Shown: one piece after another, positions 7,904 to 62,732 of the stretch
How the letters are laid out: the number at the start of each line of letters is the position of its first letter
Numbering within the stretch: position 1 is the stretch's first letter
NCBI GenBank assembly: GCA_018398815.1
Contig: CM031602.1
Location: 97,853,981-97,917,980 of the forward strand
Source of the DNA: Conus ventricosus
Lineage: Eukaryota > Mollusca > Gastropoda > Neogastropoda > Conidae
Direction: 5' to 3'
DNA length: 64,000 nucleotides
The notes under the pieces: model-generated
The model's database searches: none
What the model saw: the letters and a program-made list of their open reading frames with translations, nothing else
What the model was told of the DNA's origin: nothing
Position numbers and translations under genes: made by a program

Positions 7904-7986
7904 AGAGAACTAATAAACACGGGTCTAGCCCAACCACCCCAACCAGTTCGGGGGGTTGACTCTAACCCCGTGTTTATTAGTTCTCT
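7904..7986. repeat. Terminal hairpin-forming palindrome, copy A left
   Basis: The outer arm AGAGAACTAATAAACACGGG is the reverse complement of the inner arm ending at 7986. The centre (AACCACCCC ... GGGGGGTT) also pairs around a loop with CAACCAGTTCGGG. The right end (24665-24752) has the same layout. Confidence 0.9.
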
Positions 7987-8039
7987 GACAAGTAAGACTT
8001 CAATAACCAAAAAATAACGATTATCTACAAACAAACATA

Positions 8040-8222
8040 CTGTGTAGGATTATCCGTTTTCAATACTAATTTACTAAACTTTTCAGATTTTGTTTTTGCT
8101 TAATCCTGCGTTTTTCCTAATCTTTTTAAATAACATCATTTTCACGCATACTTTTAAAATCGAATCCCGCCCTCTGTCTTTTAATTGTTCTCTAAAGTCT
8201 TTTAAAATCCACACACTTACCT
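8040..8222 (-). pseudogene. Duplicated 3' fragment of the packaging ATPase
   Basis: Reverse complement of the end of the ATPase gene at 24382-24625. It covers the region encoding VWILCQK through the C-terminal NPTQY motif, with internal deletions. It lies inside the left terminal inverted repeat, so the ATPase tail is carried at both ends. It lacks Walker A and B and cannot encode a working ATPase. Confidence 0.85.
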
Positions 8223-8975
8223 AACATGATAAATCTTATAAAACGAAGTAGATAGACAGACAGACAAACACTAGCAATCGGCCTGCTTAAGGAAATTTCC
8301 CACACTACCAGAACACTTTACAGACATGGAAATCCCAGAGGCCCTTCATTAGGCTAAAACCTGATCACTTAATTTGTGGTGTTGGGTCTTATGACTTGCA
8401 AGTGCAATACCCGTGACCGGCCCATGCCGATCTAGACCCAGCGCCCTCCATTTTAGTTGCGGCTTTCAATGTAGACGGCCCGTGTTTTGTTTACAGAGGA
8501 ACAGCCTTCTTGCTATAGATGATCATGTTTTTATTACAACTGTAGGGCGGAGTATTTAAACAAAAGAAAAATCAGGCGAGCCCAGTTCTTTACTTCCAAG
8601 CTAAAGAGAAGTATTGCTTTTTTGGAAGGTGAGGAGAAAAAAAAACGAGAACCACTACTGAAAAACCCTACACAAGCACCTTGAAAGCTTGTTGATTCAA
8701 GACAAGATTTTGCTGATATATTTGAAAGAAAATGTTATAACTTTGATAAGCTTTTTGCCTTTTGAAGAAAATGATTCTAATTTCTAAAAAAATGGCGCTG
8801 TTTTAATTCAAAAAGCTCCAAATGTTTAGTGACGGGTTTAACTACCTGGCAATCAAGAGCCGCCAAAAAACACTAACTCCGCCAATGCCGGTCCTACCCG
8901 GGATGAAAAAGAGGAGATTTTAACTTTTTGTGAAACCCTTTGTAAAAATAGGCGAGAGGCATGTGCTGACTGTTA
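8223..8975. other. Left arm of copy A, possible gene remnant
   Basis: No intact frame. A short plus-strand stretch near 8786-8815 reads KNGAVL, as does the 204-aa gene at 61213-61827 of copy B, which would occupy this place. The match is too short to be sure, so treat it as a decayed or replaced gene. Confidence 0.3.
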
Positions 8976-9210
8976 CTATAAATGGCTGTTCGCGCGTAGT
9001 TTTCCAAGCCAGTGTTTTTTACTAATAAATGGCTGTTCGCGCGTATTTTTTCCCAAAGCCAGTGTTGTTACTATAAATGGCTGTTCGCGCGCAGTTTCCA
9101 AGCCAGCTGCAAAGCGCAGCGGCAAACTAGGCCAAACGACCCCGCTGTGACCCACTTGACCTGAAATGCTCAGCGGCAAACTAGCCAACGACCCCAGTGT
9201 ATCATTTGGC
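8976..9210 (+). repeat. Subterminal TATA-bearing tandem repeats, copy A
   Basis: Three degenerate units built on CTATAAATGGCTGTTCGCGC (near 8976, 9022 and 9070). They are followed by two copies of a block containing AGCGGCAAACTAGCCAACGA. They correspond to the TATAAATAG repeats at 61881-62225 of copy B and lie on the same strand, although the bodies of the two elements are oppositely oriented. Confidence 0.8.
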
Positions 9211-9289
9211 CTAGTTGATTGGGGTGCACGCGGGACACATCCTGTTCAGTCACAAGCAAGTGGCTCCCCAGTTCCACTTTGGACACTTA

Positions 9290-9530
9290 AACACCTTCAC
9301 CCCAAGTCAACCCCAAGTCCTTAAATTTAAAGTTCTTAATTAATCACCCCAAGTCCTTAATTAAGTTTTTTAATCAAGTCCCCCCCAAGTTCTTAATTAA
9401 GTTCTTAATTAAGTTCTTAATTAAGTCACCCAAGTTTTTAATAAGTTCTTGATCAAGTCACCTCAAGTCTTACTTAAGCCCACCTCAAGATTGTAATTAA
9501 GTCATCCTCTAAGTACAACCAAGTTCTATT
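9290..9530 (+). repeat. Degenerate CAAGT/TTAATTAAG array, copy A
   Basis: Many short CAAGTYM and TTAATTAAGT motifs in loose tandem. The tract ends with CCTCAAGATTGTAATTAAGT, which is also present in copy B (about 62508-62527) on the same strand. Confidence 0.75.
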
Positions 9531-9584
9531 CAATTTAAACTTATAATTATCAGAAAAAAAAACAATACAATCTATGTTTTTGTC

Positions 9585-9817
9585 TTAAATATAATGTCTA
9601 ATATAGTACACATACGCCTCAAAAAACGCGTCATCGTTGAGGATGTCTTGCTCAGCGTCCTTGGCGCGAGATCGGTCAGCATAGATCTTAATGAAGTTCT
9701 TACATCGAAAAGAAACCCACATTGATTACAATTCTGGTCTATGGAAATGTTTTTTAAATAGACTCCATGTCTTTATTTATTGACTCCATCATTTTAAACA
9801 AATAATAACCCCGCCAT
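9585..9817 (-). pseudogene. Small CxxC protein, copy A version (decayed)
   Basis: Homologue of the 88-aa protein at 60565-60831. The repeated MESINKDMES start, the NQC segment and the DAFFEA motif can be read but in different frames, so the gene is broken. The function is not known. It is the last gene before the variable arm, and its 3' end abuts the inversion breakpoint described in the findings. Confidence 0.6.
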
Positions 9818-9851
9818 GATCTATTTTTATCAAAGAAACAAAATTTTTATT

Positions 9852-10318
9852 GCATTTGAAATGGATCAAAATGTTCTTTTTTTGTTGGCGGTTCTGGCAT
9901 CTTTTTTGTTTGGTTTCTGTATTTAGTGGTTCAGATTTTTTTGACTGCTTTCGTTTTTGCTGTCGCTGTTTAAAAATTTTTTAAATAACAGTAAAAAACC
10001 ACCCCCAGCAGCAATGGCGCTCAAAGCGCCCAACTTTTTTTAAGTTTAATATTCCATGAAGACTTTGGCGTTTATAGGTCTTGAATCAATTTGTTCTGAC
10101 GTTTTTAATAGCTGGCATTGAATCAACTTGTTCTGGCTTTGGGCGGCGTTATGTTTTCATTATGAGTTATTTTCTGTGATTGAAAGCTTTGATTTTTTTG
10201 TTTGTTCCACTCTGCTAATCTTTTTCCTGCTGCACACGCCCCGAGAGGAAAGGGTTTTACTGGTCACTTTCTCCACCTGATTCAGTGTTTTCTGATTCTG
10301 CAGATTTTTTGGGTCGGC
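9852..10318 (-). pseudogene. Basic single-membrane-segment protein, copy A version
   Basis: Counterpart of 60055-60516. The end encoding HFDPFE and the tract encoding GRxEAGKKLAEWN can be followed, but the start codon is lost (AAAGGG where copy B has AAAATG) and several frameshifts interrupt it. It overlaps the 3' end of the next gene in the same way as in copy B. Confidence 0.55.
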
Positions 10319-10793
10319 CCTTTTGAAGGGGAAAAAATCTATATGATTTAAAAATAATTAATCCCGCGATCACTGGCGACAATAATGTTCCAAATCTGTA
10401 ATACAGATCACACCCTAGAGACCTAAATGACTTAGTTAAAACTGGATCCTGCGTTAAATCATACATAAAATCTTGTTCAGAATCAATGGGGGCAAATCTA
10501 CTAACTAGTTTTAAGTGTACAAACTAAGAACCGTTTGTCCTACACTTTTTACCATTCTTGATCCCAGTTGCGCTTCATACCTGTTGTGATACTTTACAAT
10601 GTCTTGTGGCGACATTTTTTGAATCTGTTCTATGCTGAATTCATTTCCGAGGTACTGTTTTGTTTTTTCCACATGCTGCCAAAGAATACAGTCCTTCCTT
10701 TTTGCGCATAATAGCTTGGTCATCAAAATTGGGCATTCATAAATTCAGGAAGGTTTAGGCTGCCCTGTAGCTGTAGTAGATCATCGCTGTCAT
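10257..10793 (-). pseudogene. ~177-aa protein with C-terminal membrane segment, copy A
   Basis: Frames at 10257-10466 (from MYDLTQDPVL) and 10511-10726 (ending QTVLSLYT) are two pieces of the protein encoded at 59601-60134. Both copies share CILWQH, YLGNEFSIEQIQ, MVKSVGQTVL and a hydrophobic stretch RFGTLLSPVIAGLIIF followed by a basic tail. That pattern suggests a small tail-anchored or structural protein. No named family is recognised. The start at 10793 is preceded by AATAAAAAAC. Confidence 0.65.
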
Positions 10794-10830
10794 GTTTTTT
10801 ATTAATTATAATTATTTTATTTTTAAAAAA

Positions 10831-11053
10831 GAGCACCGAAAAAACTGTTACCAACCTTTTATACCATTCTGGGGTTATTGGGGGGGTAAGTGTAGATACA
10901 CAAGCTTGGTAAAAGCCTGTTAAAAATAAAAACGGCAGATCTTGGCAAACTAACTTTGAAGACTCAGCAAAGCTATTGCTAATTATTACAGCTTCATTTG
11001 CTACGAAAGATTTTTTAGTTAAGCAAGGAATAATTCCAGACAGTAAACAATAG
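10831..11053 (+). pseudogene. 76-aa two-hydrophobic-segment protein, copy A
   Basis: Counterpart of 59335-59565. The start codon has decayed to GAGC. The C-terminal half, including ATKDFLVKQ and a phase-shifted IIPDS(K)Q end, is clear. It diverges from the gene at 10793 across a ~37-bp AT-only spacer. Confidence 0.6.
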
Positions 11054-11080
11054 TAAAATTTAAAAAATACATTTATAAAA

Positions 11081-11484
11081 ATGGCTTCACCGTAATGATG
11101 ATTGTGGCCTGTGGTTAATGCGCTTGCTTTTTGCGGAAGTAATTTCGCGTTTAGTAAACCTGCGGGATGACGGCGAGAGAAAAAGACATAACAAAGCTAT
11201 GGACAACTAGCCGCAGCACAAGATCACTATGAAAAGCAGAGAATTGAGCAGTTAGATTTTATCAATGACACACTAAAAAAAAGGGGCATGCAGCTTACAC
11301 ATTTAAAGATGTTGATCAAGCGATAAAAGAATATTATCTTTAACAGGCAAGCCAATCGAGACATTGCCCCCACCAAAATTCAGCGACTTTTATCATCCAT
11401 CAGAAAAACAAAAGATGCAAGAAATCGTGTTTATTGTCTTTGGTATGACCGTTGTGTATTTTTTTTGCGCATAATATTGGGTGA
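11081..11484 (+). pseudogene. ~136-aa membrane protein, copy A
   Basis: Counterpart of 58901-59310. It begins MAS after ATTTATAAAA, then loses frame within the first ten codons (ACCGTAATG where copy B has ACTCGTAATG). The middle (KRHNK, QRIEQLDFINDTL) and the C-terminal SEKQKMQEI plus hydrophobic FVFGMTVVYF can be followed across frames. Function unknown. Confidence 0.65.
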
Positions 11485-11491
11485 ATAAAAA

Positions 11492-12438
11492 ATGAACAAA
11501 ATTTATTATTCGCCAAAAGGATATTGGAAGGGAATAACAGCAATCAAAAAGCTAAGCCAAGCAGCTGGGGTCAGTGAACAAACAGCAAAGGAATGGTTAT
11601 CTAAACAAGCGATTTGGCAAATTTATTTACCAGCGCCTAAACGAATACAGAGACCACACTTTATGAACACAATGCCGAACGACACCCATCAAATGGATCT
11701 TCTATATTACCCCATGAAACGATTAACGAAAAAGATTTAAGTACCACTACATCATTGACGTAGCTTCAAGATACAAAGATGCGGAACCATTAACACAAAA
11801 GAGTGCTTCTGCTGTTGCTGTTGCTATACAACTAATATATCAACGAGGCCCTTAACTTATCCCCGCATGATTCAAGTCGATGATGGAAAAGAATTTAAAG
11901 GGCCCAGTGAATCAATTATTGTTAAAAAATAGAGTTACAATTAAAAGAGGCATTCCGGGAGTTCACAGATCACAGGCTTGGTTGAAAACTTTAACAAACA
12001 TTATCTGAAAGGCTTTCTCCTACCATTTTCACAGAGAGCTGATTGACAATTTTCCGCAACACAGAATGGGGTTTAAAAAGACTGCCCTCAGTTCTACGTG
12101 CAATGAATAATGAAGAATTTAAATTAACAGGTCTAAAACCAGTACAAGCAATCAAAAAACAAACAATAAATGCTGTTGAAGGAGAGTCTTCATCCAGCAA
12201 ACTATTACCATTTGGTTTGAAAGTAAGGTACCTTTATTTGCCGAGAAGCAGAAGGGACACTCGCTTCAGGCAACAGATCCAGTTTGGAGTGTTGACCCGT
12301 ATGAAAAAAAGAATTGTAAAGATGAATCCGCCCATGATTATTTACGAGAAACTGACACAACAAAACAACCAGCCCCCCCAAAGATCTTTTGTGAAGGAAG
12401 AACTGCAGATAATCCCGCCCGACACAGTTCCACTTTAA
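11492..12438 (+). pseudogene. INT: Polinton integrase, copy A (frameshifted)
   Basis: This family inserts the linear element by retroviral-type DDE strand transfer. The frame opens with MNKIYYSPKGYWKGITAIKK, an N-terminal helical region, to 11740. The rest continues in shifted frames, the last from 12043 to 12438. Catalytic positions can be placed by context: D in HQMDLLY (~11690), D in VDDGKEF (~11877) and E in LVENFNK (~11978), which is a DDE arrangement. The C-terminus ends KEELQIIPPDTVPL. The start follows AATAAAAAATG. Several indels between 11740 and 12043 make it non-functional as given. Copy B carries the same gene at 57949-58893. Confidence 0.88.
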
Positions 12439-12466
12439 CTGATTTTCGTAAATATATTGACTTAAA

Positions 12467-12803
12467 ATGGAAGCCCAAAAAGCGCAGAATGATACAAGAA
12501 TAATAAATGAAAAGACCTTGGAATTAATGCGGAATCATATTGATATGAATTTTGCTATTAAGGCAATGGTTGCGGGATTCATCGGGACATGGCAATGCAT
12601 CCAATCACCTACAGCCCAAAATCCCAAATTTTGATTTTTAGGTATGGGGTAAAGAATATCTTGAAATGAAATAAAAAAAATTCCAAGCACATCAACAAAC
12701 ATGAGAAAAATTTTGTCTGAATTGGATATTGATATGATTGAGCTCTAGATAAAGTTGAGGAAAACCATGATATGATTGAGGAAAAATATGAAGAAGATAT
12801 TAA
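12467..12803 (+). pseudogene. ~110-aa protein next to integrase, copy A
   Basis: Starts MEAQKAQNDTR, with ATW/TWQCIQ further on, as in 57584-57919, and is broken by indels. It meets the PolB gene tail to tail. Function unknown. Confidence 0.55.
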
Positions 12804-14652
12804 TTATGCTGTTCTCCAATGCCCGATTGCATATGAAAACTCTGGATTAACAAATACCGTTTTGTGTTTGTTCTATCTAATGACTCTTTGTTACAAAAAA
12901 GTTGTGTTGATCTCATGTAGATTAGATCGTAGTTTTACGTTGTCATGATGAAAAGTCTTATTGACAAGCAATGCTTCTTTTTAGTTGTCATGTGATATGC
13001 TCGACTGCACAACACTGCGAGATATTCCCTTTGCTTTTTTGATAGTTTTCCTCCTGGCTCGAAAAACTGTACATTTTTTACCTTAACCCAACAAACTCCT
13101 TGATCACCCCTCCAGATAATTCATCCTTCATCTTTCCTAAAACCTTCTTGTTAACAGTTGAATGCAAAGGCGAATCTTAGGATAATCAGATTGTCGTACC
13201 ATCCCGCATGCCCTTTAGCTACTTCTAATTCCATGTCTTTATAGATATCTTCAGTAGGGATATCTATAACAAAACTGTCTGTATCTGTGTAAAGCACTCT
13301 GGACTCAGGATGCAAGGGCTTAAAGTAGTCATAAAGAAATTCTAACATCAAAAGCTTTGATAATTCTAAACAGTAAACCCAATAAAAACGGCTTATCCAA
13401 TTTGACTTTCTTTTTTTTCATCATTATACCAAAAAGCTGATCATGAAATCTTCTGAAGTCCTGATAATTAGTTTAGAAGTCAGCTTAATTGCATCGTTCT
13501 CTTTGGTGACCAATCTGACATCTTTACGCTTGTGCGGATTCTCCATAGTCTTTCCGAAACAGCTGTTGTTCATCAGCTTGAAAAGTCTTTTCTGAAGCAT
13601 CTGTGGATTTAGTTCTGAGATCAGTATTCTCATGATGTATGGTTTCATGAACTGTTCTTGATCAAAAGCAATTAACGATGAACACTGTCAACTTCAAACC
13701 ATGTCTTAAATAAAATTGCAGAAGTCTGTAATGACAGACATAATTTTTTTTTGCCTCGAAGATTAGGCACAAGTTTAGGAGGTTCTGTTTTTGCCATCTT
13801 TAGACTTTCTGCTGCTAACGGATAGTCATTATGCAAGTCATGGAGTTCATGAGGATATTCTAAGTCAACTTCTAGAATGTATCCACGCTGTTGACCCGGC
13901 GTTAAACTGCTCAACCACTTTAATGCTCTTTGAATATTTTTTGGATCTTTGGCTGTGAGCATTTTAAAGTTACGTAATGGAAGCGATTGCGCCATTGCCC
14001 ATCCATACAGATTGTTTGCATCTAAATACATGAGATAGTTAGAACCTTTTACTTGGATCATAGTCGTCAAGTATTTGTTGTTTGCTTTACAGTAATGGTG
14101 CGACGCCATACTAATTCCTCCACGCAATCCGTTTTCAATCATCTGAATCATTGGTAGGTCAGACAATAAATCAATCTGTACTTTAGTAAACTTTAAGAAA
14201 GCGTCCCAACTCATCCCGGCGCAGAAATATAATGCGCAGGATCAAAACTGTAATGTTTCATGCAGGTCTTTCTGTAATTTTCAAAGACGTCCGCCAACAA
14301 ACATACATCAGCCATCAAGTACAGACATCACATAAAGTTAAGGACCAGTCAAGATAATAGGTGCATTTTCAAAAAATCATAAAAAACCAACGAATAAGAT
14401 TTATCATGTAAAACTCGGTGGCAAGGCTGAGGGTCAATAGTAAATACGTCAACTGCTGTGTGGGCTGCACGTGTGCGTCACGCAGCATGCTGGGCGCGTT
14501 TGAAAATCGACAATTTCAGCAAAACTGGAGCGTGTTTCAGTGGTCAGTGCGTGATACCTGTGGCTTTGTGAAGGGCCAAATTGAGATGCACGTGGATTAA
14601 TGGATATCTGGCTATGATTTATACTCCTTGGTTTGCCTACATAAGCAGCAGC

Positions 14653-14752
14653 ATGCCACCACGACAAAAGTTAAATGATTTCGACCGAACCCAAGCAGCA
14701 GCATGCCACCACGACAAAAGTTAAATGATTTCGACCGAACCCGAGCGATTGC
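14653..14752 (+). repeat. 50-bp tandem duplication over the transposase start
   Basis: The segment GCATGCCACCACGACAAAAG and its continuation to CGACCGAACCC occurs twice, 50 bp apart (ATG at 14653 and 14703). Fifty is not a multiple of three, so the first ATG reads out of frame and the second is the productive start. Confidence 0.95.
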
Positions 14753-18645: not shown

Positions 18646-18670
18646 GTTTTTTAAAAAATAAAAAAATAAT

Positions 18671-23988: not shown

Positions 23989-24625
23989 ATGGAGCAGACA
24001 ACTTTGGTGTCAATGCCGATGTTAAACTTTATGATAAAATCCCCTCATTGTTCAATGATTTGTGGGCAGACTGGCTGTGGAAAAACAATATTTGTCCTCG
24101 ACCTATTACAAACAGTTTATCGTTTATAATTTTAATCATATAGTAATTTTCTGCCCAACACTTAAATGGAACAAAGCATATAATGATAGAAGGTTTATAT
24201 GGGCGGATGATAACATATATTTAATTGATCCCAGCAATAAGCTGAGTGAGTGTTTAGAACACTTTTATAAATTGTTTGAGGGAACGCAGACGCTATTTAT
24301 TATAGATGACTGTTCGTCAGAAAGAGACATAGTTAAAAAGAGAAACACTTTGTCAAAACTGGCTTTCAGTGGAAGACATGCTGGGATAAGTGTGTGGATT
24401 TTATGTCAAAAATATAACTCCGTTTTAAAAGACTTTAGAGAACAATTAAAGACTATAGTTTTATTTCACATGAAAGACAGAGACGCATTTGATGAATGTA
24501 TGCGCGAAAATGATGTTATTGAAAATGATCAGGAAAAACACAGGATTAAGCAAAAACTAAAATCTGAAAAATTTAGTAAATTAGTATTGAAAACGGATAA
24601 TCCTACACAGTATGTTTGTTTGTAG
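23989..24625 (+). pseudogene. ATP: A32/FtsK-type packaging ATPase, copy A
   Basis: Viral genome-packaging P-loop ATPase. Walker A GQTGCGKT is encoded at ~24063-24086, in a different phase from the long frame 24062-24625. One extra T at about 24122 separates the phases. The long frame carries HIVIFCPTL, Walker B LFIIDDC (~24295-24315), a sensor-like VWILCQKYNS and the C-terminal NPTQYVCL. Unlike copy B, the segment SGRHAGIS is intact. About 245 bp of the 3' end lies inside the right terminal inverted repeat. Confidence 0.88.
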
Positions 24626-24752
24626 ATAATCGTTATTTTTTTGGTTATTGAAATCTTACTTGTCAGAGAACTAATAAACACAGGGTCTAGAGTCAACCGT
24701 CCCGAAACTAGTTGAGGGCGGTTGGGCTAGACCCCGTGTTTATTAGTTCTCT
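24382..24752. repeat. Right terminal inverted repeat of copy A
   Basis: Inverted partner of 7904-8222. The outermost 88 bp (24665-24752) form an imperfect palindrome with arms AGAGAACTAATAAACAC and its complement, plus inner pairing CAACCG/CGGTTG around a CCGAAACTAGTTGAGGG loop. The next ~40 bp are the conserved linker, and the rest is ATPase coding sequence. Confidence 0.9.
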
Positions 24753-37392: not shown

Positions 37393-37521
37393 AGAGAACT
37401 ATATAATACCAATCCTAACTCACTTCGCCCTCAAACCAGTTTTCGGGCGAAGTGACCTAGGATTGGTATTATATAGTTCTCTGACAAGTAAGACTTCAAT
37501 AACCAAAAATATAACGATTAT

Positions 37522-43880: not shown

Positions 43881-44037
43881 AGAGAACTATATAATACCAA
43901 TCCTAACTCACTTCGCCCTCAAACCAGTTTTCGGGCGAAGTGACCTAGGATTGGTATTTATAGTTCTCTGACAAGTAAGACTTCAATAACCAAAAATATA
44001 ACGATTATTTACAAACATGCATACTGTGTAGGGTTAT
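43881..44037. repeat. Left terminal inverted repeat of copy B
   Basis: Matches 62576-62732 inverted. It has an 89-bp imperfect palindrome (43881-43969; arms AGAGAACTATATAATACCAA and complement, inner stem CACTTCGCCC/GGGCGAAGTG, loop TCAAACCAGTTTT) and then the linker shared with copy A. The inner edge contains the last codons of the ATPase gene. Confidence 0.93.
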
Positions 44038-44610
44038 CCGTTTTCAATACTAATTTACTAAACTTTTCAGATTTTAGTTTTTGTTTAATCCTGCGCTTTT
44101 CCTGATCATTTTCAATAACATCATTTTCGCGCAAACATTCATCAAATGAGTCTCTGTCTTTCATGTGAAATAAAACTACAGTCTTTAACTGTTCTCTAAA
44201 GTCTTTTAAAACGGAGTTATATTTTTGACATAAAATCCACACACTTATCCCATCCTGAAAGCCAGTTTTGACAAAGTGTTTCTCTTTTTAACTATATCTT
44301 TTTCTGCTGAACAGTCATCTATAATAAAGAGTGTTTGCGTTCCCTCAAACACTTTATAAAAGTATTCTAAACACTCACTCAGTTTAGTGCTAGGATTAAC
44401 TAAATATACGTCATCGTCTGTCCATATAAACCTTCTATCATGATATGCTTTGTTCCTTTTAAGTGTTGGACAGAAAATCACAATATAATCAAAATTATAA
44501 CGATAAACTGTTTGTAATAGGTTGAGGACAAATATTGTTTTCCCACAACCAGTTTGTCCACAAATTAATGAACAATGAGGGGTTTTTGTCATAAAGTTTA
44601 ACTGCTCCAT
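44009..44610 (-). pseudogene. ATP: A32/FtsK-type packaging ATPase, copy B
   Basis: P-loop ATPase of the adenovirus IVa2/poxvirus A32/Polinton type, expected to pump DNA into capsids. The first frame (44245-44610, 121 aa) has Walker A GQTGCGKT at residues ~18-25, a YIVIFCPTL strand and Walker B LFIIDDC at ~97-103. The second frame (44009-44242) carries VWILCQKYNS, LFHMKDRDSFDEC and NPTQYACL. A 10-bp deletion after KLAF (copy A still has SGRHAGIS) shifts the frame. Both assembled versions share it, so it is real. The start is 16 bp after the preceding stop, in a three-gene leftward cluster. Confidence 0.92.
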
Positions 44611-44626
44611 AGTTTTATAACAGAAT

Positions 44627-45483
44627 TTAATCTAATCCAGTTATTATTTTTATCATGCTCTCCGTCAAAACCTGTTCAGTATAATAAAATCCTATGAGGC
44701 CTAAATGTGTAACATTAATCCAATTCAGTTCTGTAAGATTGTTTCTATTTAAGTCAACATCGATTTTGTTGCTTGTTGTTATGACCTTAATATCCTCACC
44801 ATTGTGAAGAACGACGATGGTAACTTTAAGATGTTTAACGTCTAAGTTTTGCCAGCTAATATTAATTCCTTTTATAAGTATGTCACTAACGCCCACAACC
44901 CCATCCCTCTCCTCATCTTTTAAGACAGAAATTTCAAATATTATTGTGAACGTGTCTCCTAATTTTCTGCTTGGAAAGAACTGTAATTTTGTAGAAGCTT
45001 TCTTTAAAACCGTTTCTTTTCTGTGGAGGATGTACTGTTTTTTCCCATACGGCGTTATTTCAATCTCTTTCCGACTATTGTCGTCCGGCATAAGACTTAC
45101 ATGTAAAGGGCCAGAGTTGAATGCTTTTCTGAAACTTTTTTGACGGCTAAAAAATGTAAATGGGCTTATGAATTCAAATTTTATTTCCCATTCTAAATAT
45201 GGTTCTAAATGCCATTTGCTGTCAGGTTTTCGAACTATTTTATATTCATACTGGCCAGCATTATTTGCTTCTACATTGCGCAGTTGTTCTAGTTTAGGAA
45301 ACTTTTTGTTGTCGCTAACCTCTTTGCGTTTATAATCACCATCTTAGTGTACTCAAAACCATACAAAGCGCCTATCTCACCGTTCTGTTCAAAGTCCGCA
45401 ACGTCTGCAAGGTCTTTTAATTCTAAGGTTATACACCTCACAGGCGCTAATGTAACTCCCGGTTCTTCTGGCCCCCGCGACAT
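44627..45483 (-). CDS. ~285-aa conserved protein of unknown function
   Basis: Frames 45289-45483 (from MSRGPEEPGVTLAPVRCITL) and 44627-45091 (from MPDDNSRKEIEITPYGKKQY) belong to one protein. A missing T near 45345 breaks this version, while the duplicate reads through. It has an acidic N-terminal third, a central FTFFSRQKSFRKAFNSGPLH block and a beta-rich-looking C-terminus (ISVLKDEERDG, INISWQNLDV, LGLIGFYYTEQVL). No catalytic motif. It lies between the candidate minor capsid gene (19 bp away) and the ATPase (16 bp away), so a virion component is a reasonable guess. Confidence 0.8.
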
Positions 45484-48623: not shown

Positions 48624-49892
48624 ATGTCACAAGTATATGGCTCGATTCTCAACCCGCATAGAAGACTGAAAGAACCCCAAGGCGTGAAGGGAAATAAACG
48701 GAATATTACTGTTCCAAATAATCCATCTACTATTGATGCGGATCAAATTCTTACTGTTAAATTTCCAGACCTAGGAGACGGATGATGTGATTGTGCCAGG
48801 CTCTGCACGACTTACTTTCAAAATAGAACTTGCTTCAACAACAGACCCAAACAGAACAGTTGTCCAGAATCTGGGACGGGCAATCGTTAAGAAAATTTCT
48901 ATAAAACTTGAGGGAAAGAAATATTTTCTTTACACAATGCAGACATATTTTTTAACCTATTCTGATTTATGGCTAACCGCGGATGAAAGGGCTGATCTTG
49001 CGTTTCAAGGAATCGAAAATGAAGATGCACTAAAACATAGAATAGGCGCTGAAAATGCTAAAGACGGCAAAAGGTATGTAGCTGTAAGTTATGCGTATGG
49101 TAATCGCTTTTCCATACCCTTAGATTTTGAGTTGTTAAAATCGCATGCCCCATACTTTCTAGGAGCGTTAAAAGACAGATTGTCATATGAACTAACTTTT
49201 AATGACTACAAACATGTTATTCTATCTACAGACACCGAAGCAAAGTACAGCATTTCTGACATCTTGTTAGAGTTTGACGTTGTTAGCAACTCTAATTTAG
49301 CGAGGTTGATCCGGCAACAATATCAGTCAAGATTGGCAATATATTACGAAAGAGTGCATCATCATTCAACATATCCTAAAAGCAGGGCAGACACTATATG
49401 GAATTTTAGTTTTAGCACCACAGCATATTCACTTAAAGGTATTTTATTGCTGTGCGAAGATGAAGAACCATTCAAAAGACAAACTGAAAATTTTGTTAAT
49501 CCTAAAATAACGAAAGTGCAATGTACAATTGAGGGCAGTCCTAACCAAATCTACGCTAGCGGGCTTAAACCTTATCATCATTTTGATGAAATAAGAAAAC
49601 TTTTTGGAGGCGGGAGGTGTAGAAATCCAAAAGTTGACCTTGTGTCTAAAGATCTACATCTTCACAGCGTTAGACTTGATCATTATTTAACAACGAAATA
49701 CGGTTTATGGATTGACCTAAGGTCAACAGAGGATAATGAGTTGTATGGAAGTGGGAGAAAGGTTAGAGACATAATAAACGTTCAAATTGATAAAGAAAAG
49801 AGGCCGATAAACCACTTAACGTGTATTTGTTTTTATTATATGATGCGCAGCTGAATATTGAAAATAACGAATTAAAAGATATAGTATACTAA
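48624..49892 (+). CDS. MCP: Major capsid protein (double-jelly-roll type), frameshifted ends
   Basis: About 421 aa. The start ATGTCACAAGTATATGGCTC follows TTTTATAAAA. An extra base near 48783 shifts into the long frame 48787-49854, and another indel near 49825 displaces the last ~15 codons, which end LNIENNELKDIVY. Diagnostic blocks recalled from Polinton capsid genes of cnidarians are VPGSARLTFKI, NLGRAIVKKISIKL, YGNRFSIPLDFELL, LSYELTFNDY, YYERV, NPKITKVQCTIEGSPNQ, LTTKYGLWIDLRST and YGSGR. No transmembrane segment. Expected to form the icosahedral shell. It sits directly downstream of a 38-bp AT spacer shared with a divergent gene. Confidence 0.85.
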
Positions 49893-53700: not shown

Positions 53701-56700
53701 CGACCCGGTAAGCAACAGGTGGCTGAGAAACCCCAGGAGAACCCCGGTAGCCGAAAGACGGGGGCCGACGGCCTGGAGGTTTCCCTCTCCTGGGAAAGCA
53801 GCAGGCAACGGGACACCGCCGCTCACCTGCCGGCACGCGGCAGTACCCTGCGGTGGTCTGACCCCAGCCTCAGGACGAACAGGATACCTGCTAACAACAA
53901 CTGTAGCCACTACTGTAATTTTGCTACTACCCGAGTCATCAGGCCCATAACTACCTAGTAAAACTTTAACTCTCCATCTCCCTTGCCTACTTCCCCCACT
54001 CGGAATGAGTGCCCACTGAATTTCGAATACACCCCCCCCCCCCCCCCCCATAACCCGTTACTTTGGGTTATCAGATCCATCCCCTGCAACCTTTACAACA
54101 GCAGTAACACAATATTCTCTCTGAGCCAATCTACACTATTACATATGAAACTATGACTCGCACACAATTCTCAGAGAAATAATCCCAATCCAAGCAATCC
54201 AACACGGACTCCATGGCCCCCCTTAGAAAATACAAAATAAACTAACAATTTCACAAGGAAATGTTTCCACATAGTAATCAGTATTAATACACATCTCAGA
54301 AACAACAAAACAAAAAGAATTTATCAATTTCTAACGGTTCACAGTTCTAGCATATTCATACAAAAGAATCGGCTCGCCGCCACAATCCTTCACATTCTCA
54401 TCCCTCTTTGCACTGTCGATTATAATCATATATCAAAACATGATTTGTTCATCAAAATTTCCATCCAGCCCCCCCACTCTCATGTCATCTATTGTCAGAC
54501 AATCCAGTGGGTTAATCTTTGTTATGCCAACACAACCACCCTTCATACAATATTACATGCTGCACAACTTCTGTCTTATCCTATCAACTGCTGAGCTACC
54601 CGCCTTAAACTTTACCATACCCTTCTTTCCGACTACTAAAATTCATAATGGGACTTCTCCCTGCAACCTAAAATATCTTCCTCCAACCCTATTCTGTCAC
54701 AAACACATACATCCCTGCATGTGTGACGACTGTCATTTACTTAACAAACTTCTAACCATATGGACTCACTGTCCTGTACCACATGCATACATCATCAATA
54801 CAGTCTGCACGCGCACGACACACGCGTCAAGAACCATGACTCGTAACGAAAGTGAAAAGACACCAATATGAATTGAATAGTCACGACCGTACTCCAGTAT
54901 AAACCATTCGACTACCAATTAGCCTTGGCCCCACTGCACAGTTAACCAATTCCAATGCTGTGCAGGTCAACTCCGAATTCGTCACTCAATTTCAACGAAC
55001 TACTACTATTTACAACTGAAATTGAGCACAATCCCTTAACGATTCACGCAGACACATCTGCACCTGACTCATACTATGATCCTCAACAAAAATGCAACCT
55101 CGTATTACTTCCTTACTGACCCCCTGAAATTAACATGAACTAATCACAACCAATATCTACATCACCGTCCATCAACGGGTTTTTATATCTAACCCACATT
55201 GTCTAGCAAACTGTCACATGACAATCGAACTCAGGAACATAATAATAATAACGAACCCTTAATAATAGGAACCACTATGTACATTATTTACAGAATATAC
55301 AGAAAAGAGGTACCAACACAAACCGGCTGACAAAAAGCTTCAATCACAGAACCAAGACGGCATCATACCAGACAACCAGTATACACAACAAACATAATAC
55401 AACTGAACACAGCATGAGACAACTACAGTACAACTCGCCATAATACAAAACAACATAACGAATGACACCACCATGAACCTAACAATCACCAACCTGGACA
55501 GACAGACGTTCAAAACCCCACCAGTTCTGCAACTGGCTGAAGTGGCTGCCAACCCGAGACAACACGGACTCGGCACAGGCCAAGGGCACACCAGACCCAA
55601 CGAGGACCTGGCACTAACTATGACTCGAAGTCACTCAGCTCGACTAACGGCGCTGCCGCCGCAACTACAAGGCGCGTCCACTCCGACGAACACCAGGGAC
55701 CGAAGTGAAGCTACCCCAACGCATTCCGCACTGGTCGGAATCAAGCGAACTCTACTCACAAACACAAAACAACGATTTGGGCAGAGCAGCGTATCCCCCC
55801 GCAGAGCTGACACGCCGGACCAACGGACTAGTTGTTGCTCGTGCAATAACACGACAATTTACCACAACAACTCACAGACTTGACAACACCAACAACAGCC
55901 GATATCCTGCCCCGCCTTCTCTGGTGTAGAACCAAAGTAACAAAGGGTAACAATCGGGAATGGAACCAACCTCTCGCTTCCACTCCTTCCATAATGAAGA
56001 CTGGAATTCAGGAATATTGTATGTCTTATTTCCCCAGCACCCTACCTACCTAACCTCCACCTTAACCAAAACCCCAAAAACTTACACACGCACGCTCGCA
56101 CCACACACATATACACATATGCACACGCGCACACGCTCTCTATTTCGGAATTACCCATTACTCCCAAACCTATGGACGGCTGATTTAGTACCGCCGATCG
56201 GTGACACTGGAGTACAGATTGATTTATTGTCTGACCTACCAATGATTCAGATGATTGAAAACGGATTGCGTGGAGGAATTAGTATGGCGTCGCATCATTA
56301 CTGTAAAGCAAACAACAAATACTTGGACGACTATGATCCGAGTAAAAGGTCTAACTATCTTATGTATTTAGATGCAAACAATCTGTATGGATGGGCAATG
56401 GCGCAATCGCTTCCATTACGCAACTTTAAAAGTACACAGATAATACGAATAATATTCAAAAAGCATTAAAGTGGTTGGGGAGTTTGACGCCGGGTCAACA
56501 GCGTGGATACATTCTAGAAGTTGACTTAGAATATCCTCAGGAACCCATGACCTTCATAATGACTATCCATTAGCAGCAGAAAGTCTAAAGATGGCAAAAA
56601 CAGAACCGCCTAAACTTGTGCCTAATCTTCGAGGCAAAAAAATTATGTCTGTCATTACAGACTTCTACAATTTTATTTAAGACATGGTTTAAGTTGACAG

Positions 56701-57583: not shown

Positions 57584-57919
57584 TTATATATCTTCTTCGG
57601 GTATATATTCGGGTCCATATTTTTCATCAACTTTATCAAAAAATCAATCATATCAACCTCCAGTTCATTCAAATTTTTCTCATGTTTGCTTGATGCGCTC
57701 GAATTTTTTTTATTTTTCAAGATATTCTTTATCCCATTTTTGATAGTCAAAAATTTGGGATTTGGGGTTGTAGGTGATCTGGATGCATTGCCATGTGCGA
57801 TGAGTCCTCGCAAATGTTGCACTATTAGCAGACTTTAAATCAAATGGTTCTTTTATTAATTCGAAGGTCTTTTCCTTTGTCATTCTTGTTTCATTCTGCG
57901 CTTCCTTCTGAGCTTCCAT
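57584..57919 (-). CDS. ~111-aa protein between PolB and integrase
   Basis: Starts MEAQKEAQNETR at 57919. Visible: KTFELIKEPFDLKS, TWQCIQITYNP, FDYQKWDKEYLEK, then a frameshift (T run at 57705-57715) and a charged helical tail ending KYGPEYIPEEDI. Shares its 3' boundary with PolB with no gap (stops at 57581-57583 and 57584-57586). Ends 29 bp after the integrase stop on the same strand. Function unknown; hydrophilic and probably helical. Confidence 0.65.
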
Positions 57920-57948
57920 TTTAACTCAAATATATTTACGTAAATTAA

Positions 57949-58893
57949 TTAAAGCGGAACTGTGTTTAGTGGAATTATCTGCAGTTCCTCCTTCACAAAG
58001 ATCTTTGAGGGGCTGGTTTTTTTTGTTGTGTCAGTTTCTCGTAAATAATACACAGGCGGGGTTCATCTTTACAATTCTTTTTATTTCATATGGATCAACA
58101 CTCCAAACTGGATCGGTTGCCCTGATGCGAGTGTCCCCTTCTGCTTCCCCCCGTAAAAAAGGTACCTTACTTTTCAAACCAAAACCAATAGTTTGCTGGT
58201 TTAAGACCTCCCTTCAACACATTTTGTTTTTTTTGTTGACCCTTGTACTGGTTTTAGACCCGTTAATTTAAATTCTTCATTAATCATTGCACGTAGAACT
58301 GAGGCCAGCCTCTAAACCCATTCTTTTGCAGGAATTGTCAAAAAGACTCTCCGTGTCTGTAGGAGAAAAGTCTTTTAGCTAACTGTTTGTTGAAGTTTTT
58401 CAACTAAAGCCTGTATCGTGAACTCCTGGAATCCTCTTTTTAATGGTAACCTCTAGTTTCAACAATAATTTTATTCCACTGCCCCTTATTCTTTCCATCA
58501 TCAACTTGAATCATGCGAGGGTAAGTTAAGGGGCCTCGTTGATATATAGTTGTTATAGCAACAGCAACAGCAAAGCACTCTTTGTGTTAATGGTTCTGCA
58601 TCTTTGTATCTTGAAGCTATGTCATGACTGTAAGTGCGTACTTAAATCTTTTTCGTCTAATCGTATCATGGGGTAAATATAGAAGATCCATTTGATGGGT
58701 GTCGTTTGGCGTTGTGTTGACAAGTGCGGTCTTTGTAGTCGTTTAGGCGCAGGTAAATAAATTTGCCAAATCGCTTGTTTAGATAACCATTCCTTTGCTG
58801 TTTGTTTTCACTGACTCCCGCTGCTTGGCTTAGCTTTTTAATTGCCGTAATTCCCTTCCAATATCCTTTTGGCGAATAATAGATTTTGTTCAT
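57949..58893 (-). pseudogene. INT: Polinton integrase, copy B (frameshifted)
   Basis: Retroviral-type DDE integrase expected to insert the element and create the 5-bp duplications. The start codon at 58893 follows GAATAAAAA. The first frame (58666-58893) opens MNKIYYSPKGYWKGITAIKK, loses phase at AGVSEN (copy A AGVSEQTAKEWL), and later frames carry the core (VIDVASRYKDAEPL, VDDGKEW-like, VEN/FN) and the C-terminus. About 315 codons in total, a normal length for this family. Several indels, mostly in homopolymers, so some may be sequencing errors. Confidence 0.87.
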
Positions 58894-58900
58894 TTTTTAT

Positions 58901-59310
58901 TCAGCCAATATTATGCGCAACAAAATACACAACGGTCATGCCAAATACAATAAACGCGATTTCTTGCATCTTTTGTTTTTCTGATGGTTGATAAAAATCG
59001 CTGAATTTTGGCGGGGGCAATGTTTCGATTGGTTTGCCTGTTACTAGATAATACTCTTTTATCGCTTGATCAACATCTTTAAATGTGTAAGCTGCATGTC
59101 CCTGTTTTTTTCAGTGTGTCGTTAATAAAATCTAACTGCTCAATTCTCTGCTTTTCATAGCGATCTTGTGCTGCGGCTAGTTGCTCCACAGCTTTGTTAT
59201 GTCTTTTTCTCTCGCCGTCATCCCGCAGTTTTACTAAACGCGTAATTACTTCCGCTAAAAGCAAGCGCATTCACTACTGCGCCGCCTATCATCATTACGA
59301 GTGAAGCCAT
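58901..59310 (-). CDS. ~136-aa membrane protein
   Basis: Starts MASLVMMIGGAVVNALAF (59310) after ATTTATAAAA: an N-terminal hydrophobic segment followed by a charged helix (ERKRHNKAVEQLAAAQDRYE), a YYLVTGKPIETLPPPKFSDFY segment and a C-terminal hydrophobic FIVFGMTVVYFVAH. An indel near 59249 and another near 59106 split it into frames. I recall this gene as conserved in cnidarian Polintons without assigned function. It lies 7 bp upstream of the integrase start on the same strand. Confidence 0.75.
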
Positions 59311-59334
59311 TTTTATAAATGTATTTTTTCAATT

Positions 59335-59565
59335 TCACATATTTATATTCTCTGGAATTATTTCTTGCTTAACTAGAAAATCTTTCGTAGCGAACGAAGC
59401 TGTAATAATAGCAATCAGTTTTGCCGAATCCTCAAAGTCTAGTTTGCCAAGATCTGCCGGTTTTATTTTTAACAGGCTTTTACCAAGCATTGTGTATCCT
59501 ACACTTAGACCTCCAATAACAGCAGAATGGTATACAAGGTTGGCGACAGTTTTTTCAGTGCTCAT
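59335..59565 (-). CDS. 76-aa small membrane protein
   Basis: Intact frame starting MSTEKTVANLVYHSAVIGGL. Two hydrophobic stretches (AVIGGLSVGYTMLG and AKLIAIITASFATKDF) separated by a Lys/Asp-rich turn resemble a small holin-like or scaffolding membrane protein by shape only. Follows TTTTTAAAAAATG. Diverges from the gene at 59601 across a 35-bp AT-only spacer and ends 24 bp before the next start. Conserved in copy A. Confidence 0.8.
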   Translation of the reverse strand: MSTEKTVANLVYHSAVIGGLSVGYTMLGKSLLKIKPADLGKLDFEDSAKLIAIITASFATKDFLVKQEIIPENINM

Positions 59566-59600
59566 TTTTTAAAAATAAAATAATTATAATTAATAAAAAC

Positions 59601-60134
59601 ATGAACAGCGATGATCTATTAAACCTTCCTGAACTTATGACTACAAATGATCAAGTTGATGACCAGCTATTATGCCCAAAACGGAAAGGCTGTATTCTTT
59701 GGCAGCATGCGGAAAAAACAAAACAGTACCTTGGAAATGAATTCAGCATAGAACAGATTCAACAAATGTCACCACAAGACATTGAAAAGTATCATAGCAG
59801 GTATGAAGCGCAACTAGGATCAAGAATGGTAAAAAGTGTAGGACAAACGGTTCTTGTTTGTACACTAAACAGTCAGTAGATTTGCTCCCATTGATTCTGA
59901 AACAAGACTTATGTATGATTTAACGCAAGATCCGGTTTTAACAAAGTCATAGAGTCTCTAGGGTGTGATCTGTATTACAGATTTGGAACATTATTGTCGC
60001 CAGTGATCATGGGATTAATTACATTTAATCATATAGATTTTATTTCCCTTCAAAATGAACGAGCCAGAAAATCAGCAGAATCAGGAAACATTGAATCAGA
60101 AAACATTGAATCAAGTAGAGAATGTAACCAGTAA
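59601..60134 (+). CDS. ~177-aa protein with a hydrophobic segment near the C-terminus
   Basis: Starts MNSDDLLNLPELMTTNDQVD. The first frame ends at 59879 in this version, while copy A and downstream homology (TRLMYDLTQDPVLTKS, SLGCDLYYRFGTLLSPVIMG) show that the gene continues to about 60134. It includes a CILWQHAEKTKQYLGNEF block. Its 3' end overlaps the next gene by ~80 bp in a different phase. Function unknown. Confidence 0.7.
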
Positions 60135-60516
60135 AAATGCTGGGCGTGTTGAAGCAGGAAAAAAATTAGCAGAGTGGAACAGACAAAAAAAATTAATGTT
60201 ACAATCACAGAATATAAACTCATAATGAAAACATAACACCGCCAACGCCAGAACAAGTTGATTCAATGCCAGCTATAAAAACTCCATGTGATTCAAGGCC
60301 TACAGCGTCAAAGTCTTCATGGAATATTGACTTAAAACTGTTGTCATTTTTGGCGCCCTTGCTGCTGTTGGGGGCGGTTATTACGGTTATAAAATATATA
60401 AACAACGCTGGCAAAAACAAAAGCAGTCAGAAAAATCTGAACCACTAAATACAGAAGACAAAAGCATGCCAGAACCACCAACAACAAAAGATCATTTTGA
60501 TCCATTTGAAATGTAA
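60055..60516 (+). CDS. ~153-aa basic protein with one membrane segment
   Basis: Starts MNEPENQQNQETLNQKTLNQ. A GRVEAGKKLAEWNRQKK basic motif precedes a Pro-rich linker (ITPPTPEQVD) and a hydrophobic segment (LKLLSFLAPL-AAVGGGYYGY), followed by a basic stretch and an acidic tail ending HFDPFEM. Indels near 60225 and 60360 break the frame. The GRxxAGKKLAEWN motif is one I remember from other Polintons. Function unknown; possibly DNA- or membrane-associated. Confidence 0.65.
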
Positions 60517-60564
60517 TAATATTTTAAGAACTTAATTTTAAAATTTTTTTGATAAAAATAGATC

Positions 60565-60831
60565 ATGGCGTATTATAAAATGATGGAGTCAATAAATAAA
60601 GACATGGAGTCTATAAAAGACATTTCCATAGACCAGAATTGTAATCAATGCGGTTGCTTAGGATGTAAGAACTTCATTAAGATCTATGCTGACCAATCTC
60701 GCGCAAAGAACGCCGAGCAAAATATTCTCAGCGATGACGCGTTTTTTGAGGCGTGTGTGTACTATATTAGACATCGCTGTTTAAGGCAAAAACATAAATT
60801 GTATTTTTTTTCATGTGAAACTGTTCTCTAA
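60565..60831 (+). CDS. 88-aa protein with CxxCxCxxC motif
   Basis: MAYYKMMESINKDMESIKDI start, then NQCGCLGC, a possible metal-binding cluster, followed by KNFIKIYADQSRAKNAEQNI and DAFFEACVYYIRHRC. The last ~10 residues (FFSCETVL) are encoded by sequence that is antisense ATPase, brought in by the arm inversion, so the C-terminus is probably not native. Copy A ends soon after YYIRH. Function unknown. Confidence 0.7.
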   Translation: MAYYKMMESINKDMESIKDISIDQNCNQCGCLGCKNFIKIYADQSRAKNAEQNILSDDAFFEACVYYIRHRCLRQKHKLYFFSCETVL

Positions 60832-60900
60832 AGCCTTTTAAAACCGAGTTATATTTCTAACATAAAATCCACACACTTATTCCAGCGTGTTTCCACTACG
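60813..60900 (-). pseudogene. ATPase fragment at the inner inversion breakpoint
   Basis: The minus strand encodes GISVW/ILC, YNSVLK and LRE(N)-type remnants matching the ATPase between GISVWILCQK and LFHMK. It keeps the sequence deleted from this element's own ATPase, so it derives from an older terminal-repeat copy. Confidence 0.85.
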
Positions 60901-61212
60901 TTACTTACCGAATGTGGGCCTCCTGTCACTGGTAATATGAGAAGGGTAAATGACGGGGCCCACAACCCTAATTGCTAGTGCTGCTAGTAAAACATGTAAA
61001 GGGAGAGATAATTAGCAGGCTTGCTGGCGTGTACGTGGCTAGGAATGCTCACGTAATCGGCTGTTTATAGTAACAGTCAGCAAGGCTATTTTTGCTGCAA
61101 CAAAACGCCCCTGCTTATCTCACCATTCTTCCACTGACTGCTAAACAAGAAGGCTGTTTTTTTTACTGTGCTCTGTTGACTACTGTGTTTTGGTTGTGTT
61201 ATTATTTTAACA
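60901..61212. other. Arm spacer without a gene
   Basis: No frame of note. Contains CTGTTTATAGTAACAGTCAG, a divergent inverted relative of the TATA repeats further right. Confidence 0.5.
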
Positions 61213-61827
61213 ATGGCTAACAGTTTACTAAAGAACAGACTCGTGCTATTCAAGATCACAAGTTTTACTTCACCAGCATGTTAGAGTATTTGTCGAAAAA
61301 AGAACTAGGTGAAGCATGTTCTCTGTCAGTGAAACCAAAAAAGGTGGAGAAAAAGAAAAAAGTGAACCGACTGCTTTGGAAATGCACAACTATCTTAAAG
61401 GTTTGTTGGTTCAAGAAAATGAAAACGCTAAAAGAAATATTGCTGAACAAGATGTAGCCAGTTTCAATATGTGTTTGACTATTGATAAGATGGTTCCTTA
61501 TCTAAAAATGGCGCTGTGTTGTTGAAAGTTGGCCGAAGCAAAACAATCCATCATGCGTTGATTGTTGAGCGCTGGCTTAAGACAGCTCAAGACATGTTTA
61601 AAAGAACAAAACCGCGTCAAACATGGCGTTCATTTCTTAAGACGCAGGTAAACATAGCTGATTCGTATGCTAGGAAACTCATTCAACTTTCTGTGTGTTT
61701 TTATAACTATCCTAAATTTCACAAGCTAGGAATCAGTATAAATGAACTGTGTAGCAAACGTCAAAGTATTATTAGGATTATGCAACTAAATAGCGATTTC
61801 CGGAGTTTTGGCAAACAAACTAGATAG
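61213..61827 (+). CDS. ~204-aa protein with C-terminal SYARKL domain
   Basis: Broken into phases: 61213 start (MANSLL), then TSMLEYLSKKELGEA, then frame 61316-61525 and frame 61516-61827. The C-terminal part WRSFLKTQVNIADSYARKLI...YPKFHKLGISINELCSKRQS matches a helical, possibly DNA-binding domain that I recall from invertebrate Polinton-encoded proteins. The N-terminus is Lys-rich. Starts after TATTTTAACA. It is the outermost gene of this arm and lies beside the TATA-bearing repeats. Copy A has at most a remnant. Confidence 0.65.
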
Positions 61828-61880
61828 GGTTAGGCAGACCTTAGTACATCTGCCAGTATGGTTAGCCTTGCTGACTGCTA

Positions 61881-62225
61881 CTATAAATAGCCGTTCACGG
61901 CATGAACGCCTTATTTTAGTAGCAAGAGGGCTGCGGTAAAATCCACCTTGCTATAAATAGCCGTTCATGCTGTGAACGCCTTATTTTAGTAGCAAGAGGG
62001 CTGCGGTAAAATCCACCTTGCTATAAATAGCCGTTCATGCTGTGAACGCCTTATTTAGTAGCAAGAGGACTGCGGTAAAATCCACCTTGCTGACTGCTAC
62101 TATAAATAGGCGTTCATGCTGTGAACGCCTTATTTTAGTAGCAAGAGGGCCGCAGTAAAATTAGCCTTGCTATAAATAGGCGTTCACGGCATGAACGCCT
62201 TATTTAGTTAGCAAGAGGGCTGCTG
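61881..62225 (+). repeat. Subterminal TATA-plus-palindrome tandem repeats, 5 copies
   Basis: About 70-79-bp units, each with CTATAAATAG directly followed by an inverted repeat (GCGTTCA-N5-TGAACGC form, or CCGTTCACGGCATGAACG), then TTATTTTAGTAGCAAGAGGG. A TATA box plus operator-like palindrome in tandem could be promoters, replication iterons or protein-binding sites. Confidence 0.9.
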
Positions 62226-62329
62226 GGCTATAAGCAACATTATCTTATCTTATCTTACTGCCTGTACTTGCTATGTGCGGACACTAAGGGAGGTAACTCC
62301 TGCACACCCCCACCCCACGCATGCACCAC

Positions 62330-62527
62330 ACTCAAGTCACTTCTAAGTTCTTACTCAAGTTCACACTCAAGTTGTCCTCAAGTCATCCTCAAGTTCTTAC
62401 TCAAGTCACTTCTAAGTTCTTACTCAAGTCACCTCAAGTCACCCCAAGTCACTTCTAAGTTCTTACTCAAGTCGTCCTCAAGTCATCCTCAAGTTCTTAC
62501 TCAAGTCACCTCAAGATTGTAATTAAG
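62330..62527 (+). repeat. CAAGTC/CAAGTTCTTACT array
   Basis: Loose tandem array of CTCAAGTCA, CTAAGTTCTTACT and TCAAGTTGTC motifs (about 20 CAAGT/TAAGT cores). Same motif family and same terminal CCTCAAGATTGTAATTAAGT as in copy A. Confidence 0.85.
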
Positions 62528-62544
62528 TCACACTAACAGGGTGT

Positions 62545-62612
62545 GCGCATTTGATGAATGTATGTGTAAAAACACATAATCCTACACAGTATGCATGTTT
62601 GTAAATAATCGT
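62545..62612 (+). pseudogene. ATPase 3'-end remnant in the right terminal repeat
   Basis: GCATTTGATGAATGTATG (AFDECM) followed, after a ~100-bp internal deletion and a phase change, by codons for K-T-H-N-P-T-Q-Y-A-C-L and a stop. It mirrors the true ATPase end at 44009-44050. Confidence 0.88.
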
Positions 62613-62732
62613 TATTTTTTTGGTTATTGAAGTCTTACTTGTCAGAGAACTATATAATACCAATCCTAGGTCACTTCGCCCGAAACTGGTTTGAGGGCGA
62701 AGTGAGTTAGGATTGGTATTATATAGTTCTCT
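62576..62732. repeat. Right terminal inverted repeat of copy B
   Basis: Inverted match to 43881-44037. The outer 89 bp (62644-62732) are the terminal palindrome. Confidence 0.93.

Follow-up and report, generated by a model that had tools for sequence, protein, structure and literature searches.

Hairpin ends with covarying stems and a one-way loop in a Polinton family of Conus ventricosus

Here, we describe the ends of a Polinton family, starting from a 64,000-nt stretch of Conus ventricosus DNA (the window). Two long copies lie in the window, A at 7904-24752 and B at 43881-62732, together with a partial third at 37393-41400. The ends are imperfect palindromes that fold into hairpins. Across a large family, counted over one 3.52-Gb genome, the two arms of the stem covary, and a conserved loop stands in a single orientation. 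These findings suggest that the ends are kept by shape rather than by sequence, with some copies lacking the pairing. Our best reading, which we hold tentatively, is that the end of a protein-primed element folds back as single-stranded DNA and that selection, copying, or both keep its arms matched.

Each of the window's five termini is an imperfect palindrome, 83 to 90 bp long. These termini and the adjoining repeat are as follows.

7904..7986, + strand: left terminal palindrome of element A, class ACACGGGGTCTAG, 83 bp, shorter than its right partner
24665..24752, - strand: right terminal palindrome of element A, same class as the left end, 88 bp
37393..37482, + strand: fifth terminal palindrome, left end of the partial copy, 90 bp
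43881..43969, + strand: left terminal palindrome of element B, class TACCAATCCTAA, 89 bp, with the target duplication GCAAG outside
62644..62732, - strand: right terminal palindrome of element B, 89 bp, with the target duplication GCAAG outside
7987..8154, + strand: conserved subterminal repeat adjoining the hairpin (GACAAGTAAGACTTCAATAACC...), within the inverted repeat

An earlier note on this DNA had listed the four termini of A and B as 83- to 89-bp palindromes, with stems that differ between A and B around a conserved loop, and we found them there and as described. When folded as single DNA strands, the four reached -27.6, -32.9, -33.4, and -36.6 kcal/mol (A's left terminus was folded as 7905-7987, one base off). 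The corresponding z values were -9.0 to -13.8, and none of the 200 shuffles of each terminus was as stable. The fifth palindrome, which is absent from that list, was rejected as an independent case. It belongs to a 4-kb segmental duplication (37393-41400 versus 43881-47876) that repeats B's left end at 99.15% identity together with a common flank; the two hairpins measure 90 and 89 bp. Two long interior stretches of A and B align at about 87% identity, and from the hairpin's inner foot inward the identity is 91% (91.4% over the aligned stretch 7970-8154); the stems are nevertheless unlike.

The family is abundant. The word TAGTTCTCTGACAAG, which covers the hairpin's inner foot and neighboring DNA, had 1,681 exact matches in the genome (4 for the reversed control), and the sister terminus word CTGTTCTCTGACAAG had 7,400 (10 for the reversed control). 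The word AGAGAACTA lay 50 to 80 nt upstream of TAGTTCTCTGACAAG in 1,316 matches (0 for the reversed control). These genome-wide word counts are lower bounds. We read 135 termini: 95 of the TAGTTCTCTGACAAG kind (90 of the first 100 listed places plus the five window termini) and 40 of the CTGTTCTCTGACAAG kind (40 of 100 listed). These places were taken from the start of the contig order rather than at random, and duplicates occur among them (L022/L023, L050/L051, and L061/L062). The start was anchored in 124 termini (89 and 35 by sample), with one change accepted in L134 and L140. The rest stand outside the folding counts, namely, 6 of 95 in the first sample (L017, L027, L031, L043, L044, and L057) and 5 of 40 in the second (L121, L131, L133, L146, and L147); L147 is cut by the chosen stretch, and L057 and L121 retain part of the outer arm. 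In L017, L027, and L044, a different, GTAAGAACGTTTGACC-like repeat has taken the place of the outer arm and joins the rest close to the loop. In L131 and L133, GACAGACA-like simple repeats replace the outer arm, and the inner arm remains. Upstream of 209, L031 carries tandem (nested) hairpins at one end; the outer is complete and the inner truncated.

Strong folds (-20 kcal/mol or lower) were obtained for 107 of the 124 anchored termini (79 and 28 by sample), and weak folds (above -15 kcal/mol) were obtained for 17 (10 and 7 by sample), with none between -20 and -15 kcal/mol. The earlier note had named two outcomes as telling against it. Absence of the palindrome from most members was not found in these samples, and stem differences left unpaired in many copies were found in one class, the 17 weak folders.

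The hairpins share one architecture. The most constant part is the outermost AGAGAAC; TA or AG mostly comes next, usually changing in step with TA or CT opposite. The outer stem is about 25 bp long and includes a hypervariable stretch of 8 to 10 bp. A small internal loop lies most often 26 to 28 nt from the tip, and the inner stem of about 8 to 12 bp varies in sequence and length. The conserved loop is CTCAACCAGTTTCG and variants of it, with L012 and L111/L112 as exceptions that have longer loops. The first sample yields 64 distinct paired hairpins. Of these, 54 were disrupted at 25 to 30 nt, at a rate of 25.5% per position compared with 5.6% at positions 10 to 23; six had no loop or bulge between 22 and 34 nt.

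Covariation was analyzed in an alignment of 72 of the 73 distinct first-sample termini, with the unpaired class included and L072 omitted for its C run. Standard pairs filled 93.6% of the cells over 29 pairs, compared with 78.9% after shuffling. The covariation score was 0.421, compared with 0.161 after shuffling and 0.048 to 0.112 when partners were slid by 1 to 3 columns. Twenty pairs changed on both sides (shuffled mean, 16.2; 1 of 500 shuffles as high), 47 further pair types were counted (shuffled, 41.3; 6 of 500 as high), and all four Watson-Crick types occurred at three pairs. Because the kinship of copies can inflate the shuffle result, an arm-swap control was added. With one copy per cluster (19 clusters), own arms paired at -22.4 kcal/mol and swapped arms at -8.5 kcal/mol; with both samples (30 clusters), the values were -20.5 and -8.4 kcal/mol. 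The observed pairing was reached by 0 of 20,000 permutations in either cluster set. The own inner arm was the best partner in 16 of 19 and 21 of 30 clusters, and the exceptions include the unpaired class. Thus, the earlier proposal that the stems covary with pairing kept extends, by both the shuffle and the arm-swap tests, to a large family in this genome.

The kind of pairing is also informative. In 91 distinct paired hairpins, G.T made up 15 of 3,292 folded pairs (0.46%), and single (1x1) A.C mismatches, which were counted differently, numbered 36. The few G.T pairs point to DNA rather than RNA and to few half-changed intermediates. A hairpin with a role in RNA, such as a signal for transcript processing or packaging, could leave a similar record, as covariation alone cannot separate DNA from RNA. 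However, an RNA stem would tolerate G.U, and a search of Rfam with B's left end (43700-44150) returned no match, which also counts against an RNA-level role; we regard such a role as highly improbable.

The loop provided a test of another kind. Genome-wide and with the same anchors, the loop TCAACCAGTTT had 662 exact forward matches and 1 reverse match, the sole exact reversed-loop terminus being on a small contig (G000:C4757:1802-1895); both orientation patterns are limited to the AGAGAACTA class and to one loop word. With a simple pattern, the loop was forward in 107 of the 124 anchored termini, reversed in none, and neither in 17. A looser anchor gave 19 reversed-loop matches, 4 of which fell within the stretch covered by the forward list. 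Three of these four are forward termini on the opposite strand, that is, the same hairpins read from outside, with a flank beginning GAC; the remaining 16 matches were left untraced. Hairpin transfer or resolution of the parvovirus or poxvirus type inverts the loop and should mix the orientations. Because the loop stands in one orientation, such transfer is unlikely, and the part of the earlier note that likened the ends to those of poxviruses or parvoviruses is not supported. In size, loop, and imperfect stem, the hairpins do resemble a telomere of that type, closed or self-primed and then nicked and transferred in every round, but the one-way loops argue against hairpin transfer and make this explanation very unlikely.

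The palindromes are true element ends, because exact 5-bp target duplications adjoin most end pairs (23 of 30 left/right pairs). In L011/L012 and L024/L025, the duplications match once shifted by one or two bases. No flank match was found for L061/L062, L093/L094, and L129/L130, and L121/L122 could not be anchored. In the window, B has GCAAG on both sides and A's flanks are inexact (CTGGG versus TGGGG). L009 and L010, about 88 kb apart, share a hairpin class and the flank word CCTTT, by virtue of either a very long or nested element or coincidence. Duplications of 5 bp are compatible with a retroviral-type integrase. The position of the palindrome at the joined ends and the constancy of the outermost AGAGAAC would also suit a double-stranded hairpin extruded as a cruciform, a recognition site for the integrase or a packaging protein that acts at integration and not at replication. 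However, seven unpaired end pairs carry exact duplications of the same length (L029/L030, L091/L092, L095/L096, L097/L098, L099/L100, L115/L116, and L127/L128). Thus, stem pairing is dispensable for integration and the integrase needs no stem, so we consider the cruciform explanation improbable.

The class with unpaired stems serves as a built-in control within the same data set. Its 34-nt core (CTTGCTCCTCCACCAAG...) has 599 exact matches in the genome. Thirty members were examined, 20 fetched by the core and 10 from the first sample; among them, 18 different outer arms were counted, and the inner arms fall mainly into two kinds. Pairing of the arms was calculated at only -1.9 to -9.3 kcal/mol. 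The outer arms resemble arms of paired hairpins, with a best identity of 0.79 to 1.0 over 14 nt. Three explanations offer themselves: replication from a poorer end, help in trans, or a hairpin that arises in part as a by-product of copying.

The two ends of an element match each other. For 13 element pairs (first sample plus window), left and right ends had a mean identity of 0.928 over the variable part, compared with 0.675 when right ends were permuted (0 of 20,000 permutations as high), and identity was 0.87 or higher in 12 of the 13 pairs (0.87 for A). L061/L062 were omitted from this comparison, as their flanks are reverse complements and mark an inverted duplication. This end-to-end match agrees with a linear replicating form that uses one end as the template for the other. 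The exception is L064/L065, one element (duplication CGGCA) with two unlike hairpins, each self-paired; mutual pairing of the two ends as the sole cause of covariation was therefore rejected. In L117/L118 (duplication GATGA), the outer arm is more alike between ends (0.87) than the inner arm (0.68).

Between elements, unlike hairpins stand beside near-identical DNA. Of 15 pairs whose next 300 bp match at 97% or more, 27% had a hairpin identity below 0.7; of 224 pairs with a match of 94 to 97% over that length, 57% did. On a tree of the 380 bp inside the hairpin, the 19 hairpin classes required 50 changes (shuffled, 68.2; 0 of 200 as low; minimum, 18), a count that is inflated because left and right ends, which are unlike past the repeat, stand together among the rows; the pairwise table is therefore preferred. 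By this reconstruction, the classes are partly clustered on the tree. These patterns suggest to us that stem cassettes pass from one element to another and subsequently come to stand at both ends. The termini L095 and L096, about 20 kb apart with decoupled-class hairpins and the duplication ACTGT, have inner DNA unlike the usual GACAAGTAAG repeat, and here the terminal cassette may have been transferred to a different kind of element. A bolder and rather doubtful extension is that the family represents a third kind of linear genome end. Its hypervariable termini would be defined by shape only and recognized by hairpin geometry, and elements would exchange cassettes, either the roughly 45 nt between tip and loop or the entire hairpin, with later copying to the opposite end. 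If true, the ends would be changeable tags that could escape sequence-specific host silencing.

Copying without function could explain much of this. Template switching or gene conversion at forks would symmetrize quasi-palindromes, and the covariation would be a mutational record. The near-perfect Watson-Crick pairing, the unlike stems beside nearly identical neighboring DNA, and the target duplications on unpaired copies are all in line with it. However, correction of this type should erase the disruption that persists at 25 to 30 nt in 54 of 64 hairpins, and the conserved loop and the bimodal folding energy also speak against it. On balance, we see it as possible, though not likely. Copying alone accounts for the pairing and the cassette traffic but not for a disruption kept near one place, and selection alone accounts for the kept disruption but not for the near absence of intermediates. 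Probably, both act.

Under the preferred reading of a single-stranded fold-back, the hairpin would form when the end turns single-stranded during protein-primed strand-displacement replication. The inner arm could then template the outer arm, and few half-changed intermediates would be expected because one arm is copied from the other. Proteins would recognize the loop and the internal loop, and the stem letters would thereby be free to drift while pairing persists. The integrase would join the outermost AGAGAAC to the target DNA with a 5-bp duplication, and replication would include no hairpin-transfer step. We infer the single-stranded stage, the templated repair, and the protein recognition from the structures and patterns described above.

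Several points weigh against this reading. Stems are unpaired in 17 of the 124 anchored termini, exact duplications flank seven unpaired end pairs, and stem pairing may be unneeded for replication as well. The counts of two-sided changes and of pair types are weaker signals than the covariation score, and the swap test on both samples picked the own inner arm as best partner in only 21 of 30 clusters. A scan of IMG/VR by terminal word, capsid protein, and A32 alignment found no relative. Finally, integrated copies in one genome are the sole source of data for all results.

The genes inside A and B identify the elements. The coding features are as follows.

24059..24625, + strand: A32-like packaging ATPase fragment, element A (PF04665, 3.3e-9)
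44247..44631, - strand: A32-like packaging ATPase fragment, element B (PF04665, 5.8e-8)
48775..49854, + strand: major capsid protein open reading frame (ORF), element B, 359 amino acids (696 homologues at E<=1e-3)
13672..14241, - strand: protein-primed DNA polymerase (PolB) fragment, element A, motif YLDANNLYG
55951..56469, + strand: protein-primed PolB fragment, element B, motif YLDANNLYG
11489..11737, + strand: integrase-like fragment, element A, recognized by eye
58669..58896, - strand: integrase-like fragment, element B, recognized by eye

Judged by their sequence, the elements belong to the Polinton/Maverick group, with the capsid protein and the A32 ATPase as marks; inverted repeats are present in A and B, and 5-bp target duplications are present. 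Both PF04665 matches exceed the cut-off, and the A32 fragment of A has 403 homologues. Among the 120 listed homologues of the capsid ORF, the named match was the major capsid protein of the sea slug Elysia marginata (50% identity); the capsid assignment is by homology, and a search against PDB sequences gave no match. We take YLDANNLYG (A and B) and TDTDS (in A) to be PolB motifs, and a Pfam search with the two PolB fragments returned no polymerase match. The integrase-like fragments may correspond to a retroviral-type integrase, and they had no match in Pfam. In PHROGs, the A32 fragment matched a terminase weakly (0.0057), and an inserted transposase had matches as well. The latter is a stop-free Tc1/mariner-type frame inside A (14679-15731; 350 amino acids; PF13358, 1.6e-15), beside the PolB fragment. 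B contains an Endonuclease VII-like match (51978-52292; PF02945, 9.5e-5), just below the cut-off. Elsewhere in the window, positions 28001-30000 are very G-rich with extreme strand asymmetry (GC skew, +0.97; 65% GC over 2 kb).

Polintons are a proposed link between transposons and several groups of DNA viruses, and the start and finish of their replication are largely inferred. A family that offers ends by the thousand, stems that covary, a loop in fixed orientation, and clean target duplications makes Polinton replication testable by counting. Among known structures, the ends of parvoviruses and poxviruses are likewise imperfect terminal hairpins with unpaired bases, but their loops flip between rounds, whereas the orientation is fixed in the family described here. 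Integron attC sites also conserve structure, with variable stem letters and unpaired bases held in place; unlike the ends here, they are tyrosine recombinase sites inside cassettes and not at the end of an element.

We compared these ends with passages of PMC12220804, PMC8097293, PMC10120064, PMC4061559, PMC10301787, PMC6431247, PMC12747079, PMC6723459, and PMC11172284. In these passages of the open-access literature, which does not cover subscription papers such as the first Polinton description, no hairpins at Polinton ends were described. Vertebrate Mavericks/Polintons are reported to have the end motifs (AG)3 or (AGT)2 and 6-bp target duplications (PMC8097293). The elements here resemble them in the capsid protein, the A32 ATPase, the PolB motif, inverted repeats, and ends of the form AG...CT; they differ in carrying AGAGAACTA or AGAGAACAG, 5-bp instead of 6-bp duplications, and a terminal palindrome. 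That paper's text contains neither hairpin nor palindrom (PMC8097293). As the earlier note had stated, classical Polinton ends are described as inverted repeats, in agreement with the relevant passages of PMC8097293 and PMC4061559, and a protein-primed mode of replication with a single-stranded intermediate has been suggested for Polintons (PMC4061559). The Bidnaviridae share with Polintons a related protein-primed PolB and inverted terminal repeats, but their repeats are stated to form no hairpins of the kind typical of parvoviruses (PMC4061559). The giant viruses of a freshwater cryptomonad are nucleocytoplasmic, with repeats of about 100 kb, and are not Polintons (PMC12747079). The telomeres of Streptomyces differ from the ends here: several palindromes are packed into a roughly 300-nt overhang, the origin is internal, and the proteins are the bacterial Tpg and Tap, which were not sought here (PMC4513846). 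However, their single-stranded ends form palindromes that are bound at the loops by protein and carry protein-primed synthesis (PMC4513846), and they are the closest working parallel to the proposed mechanism.

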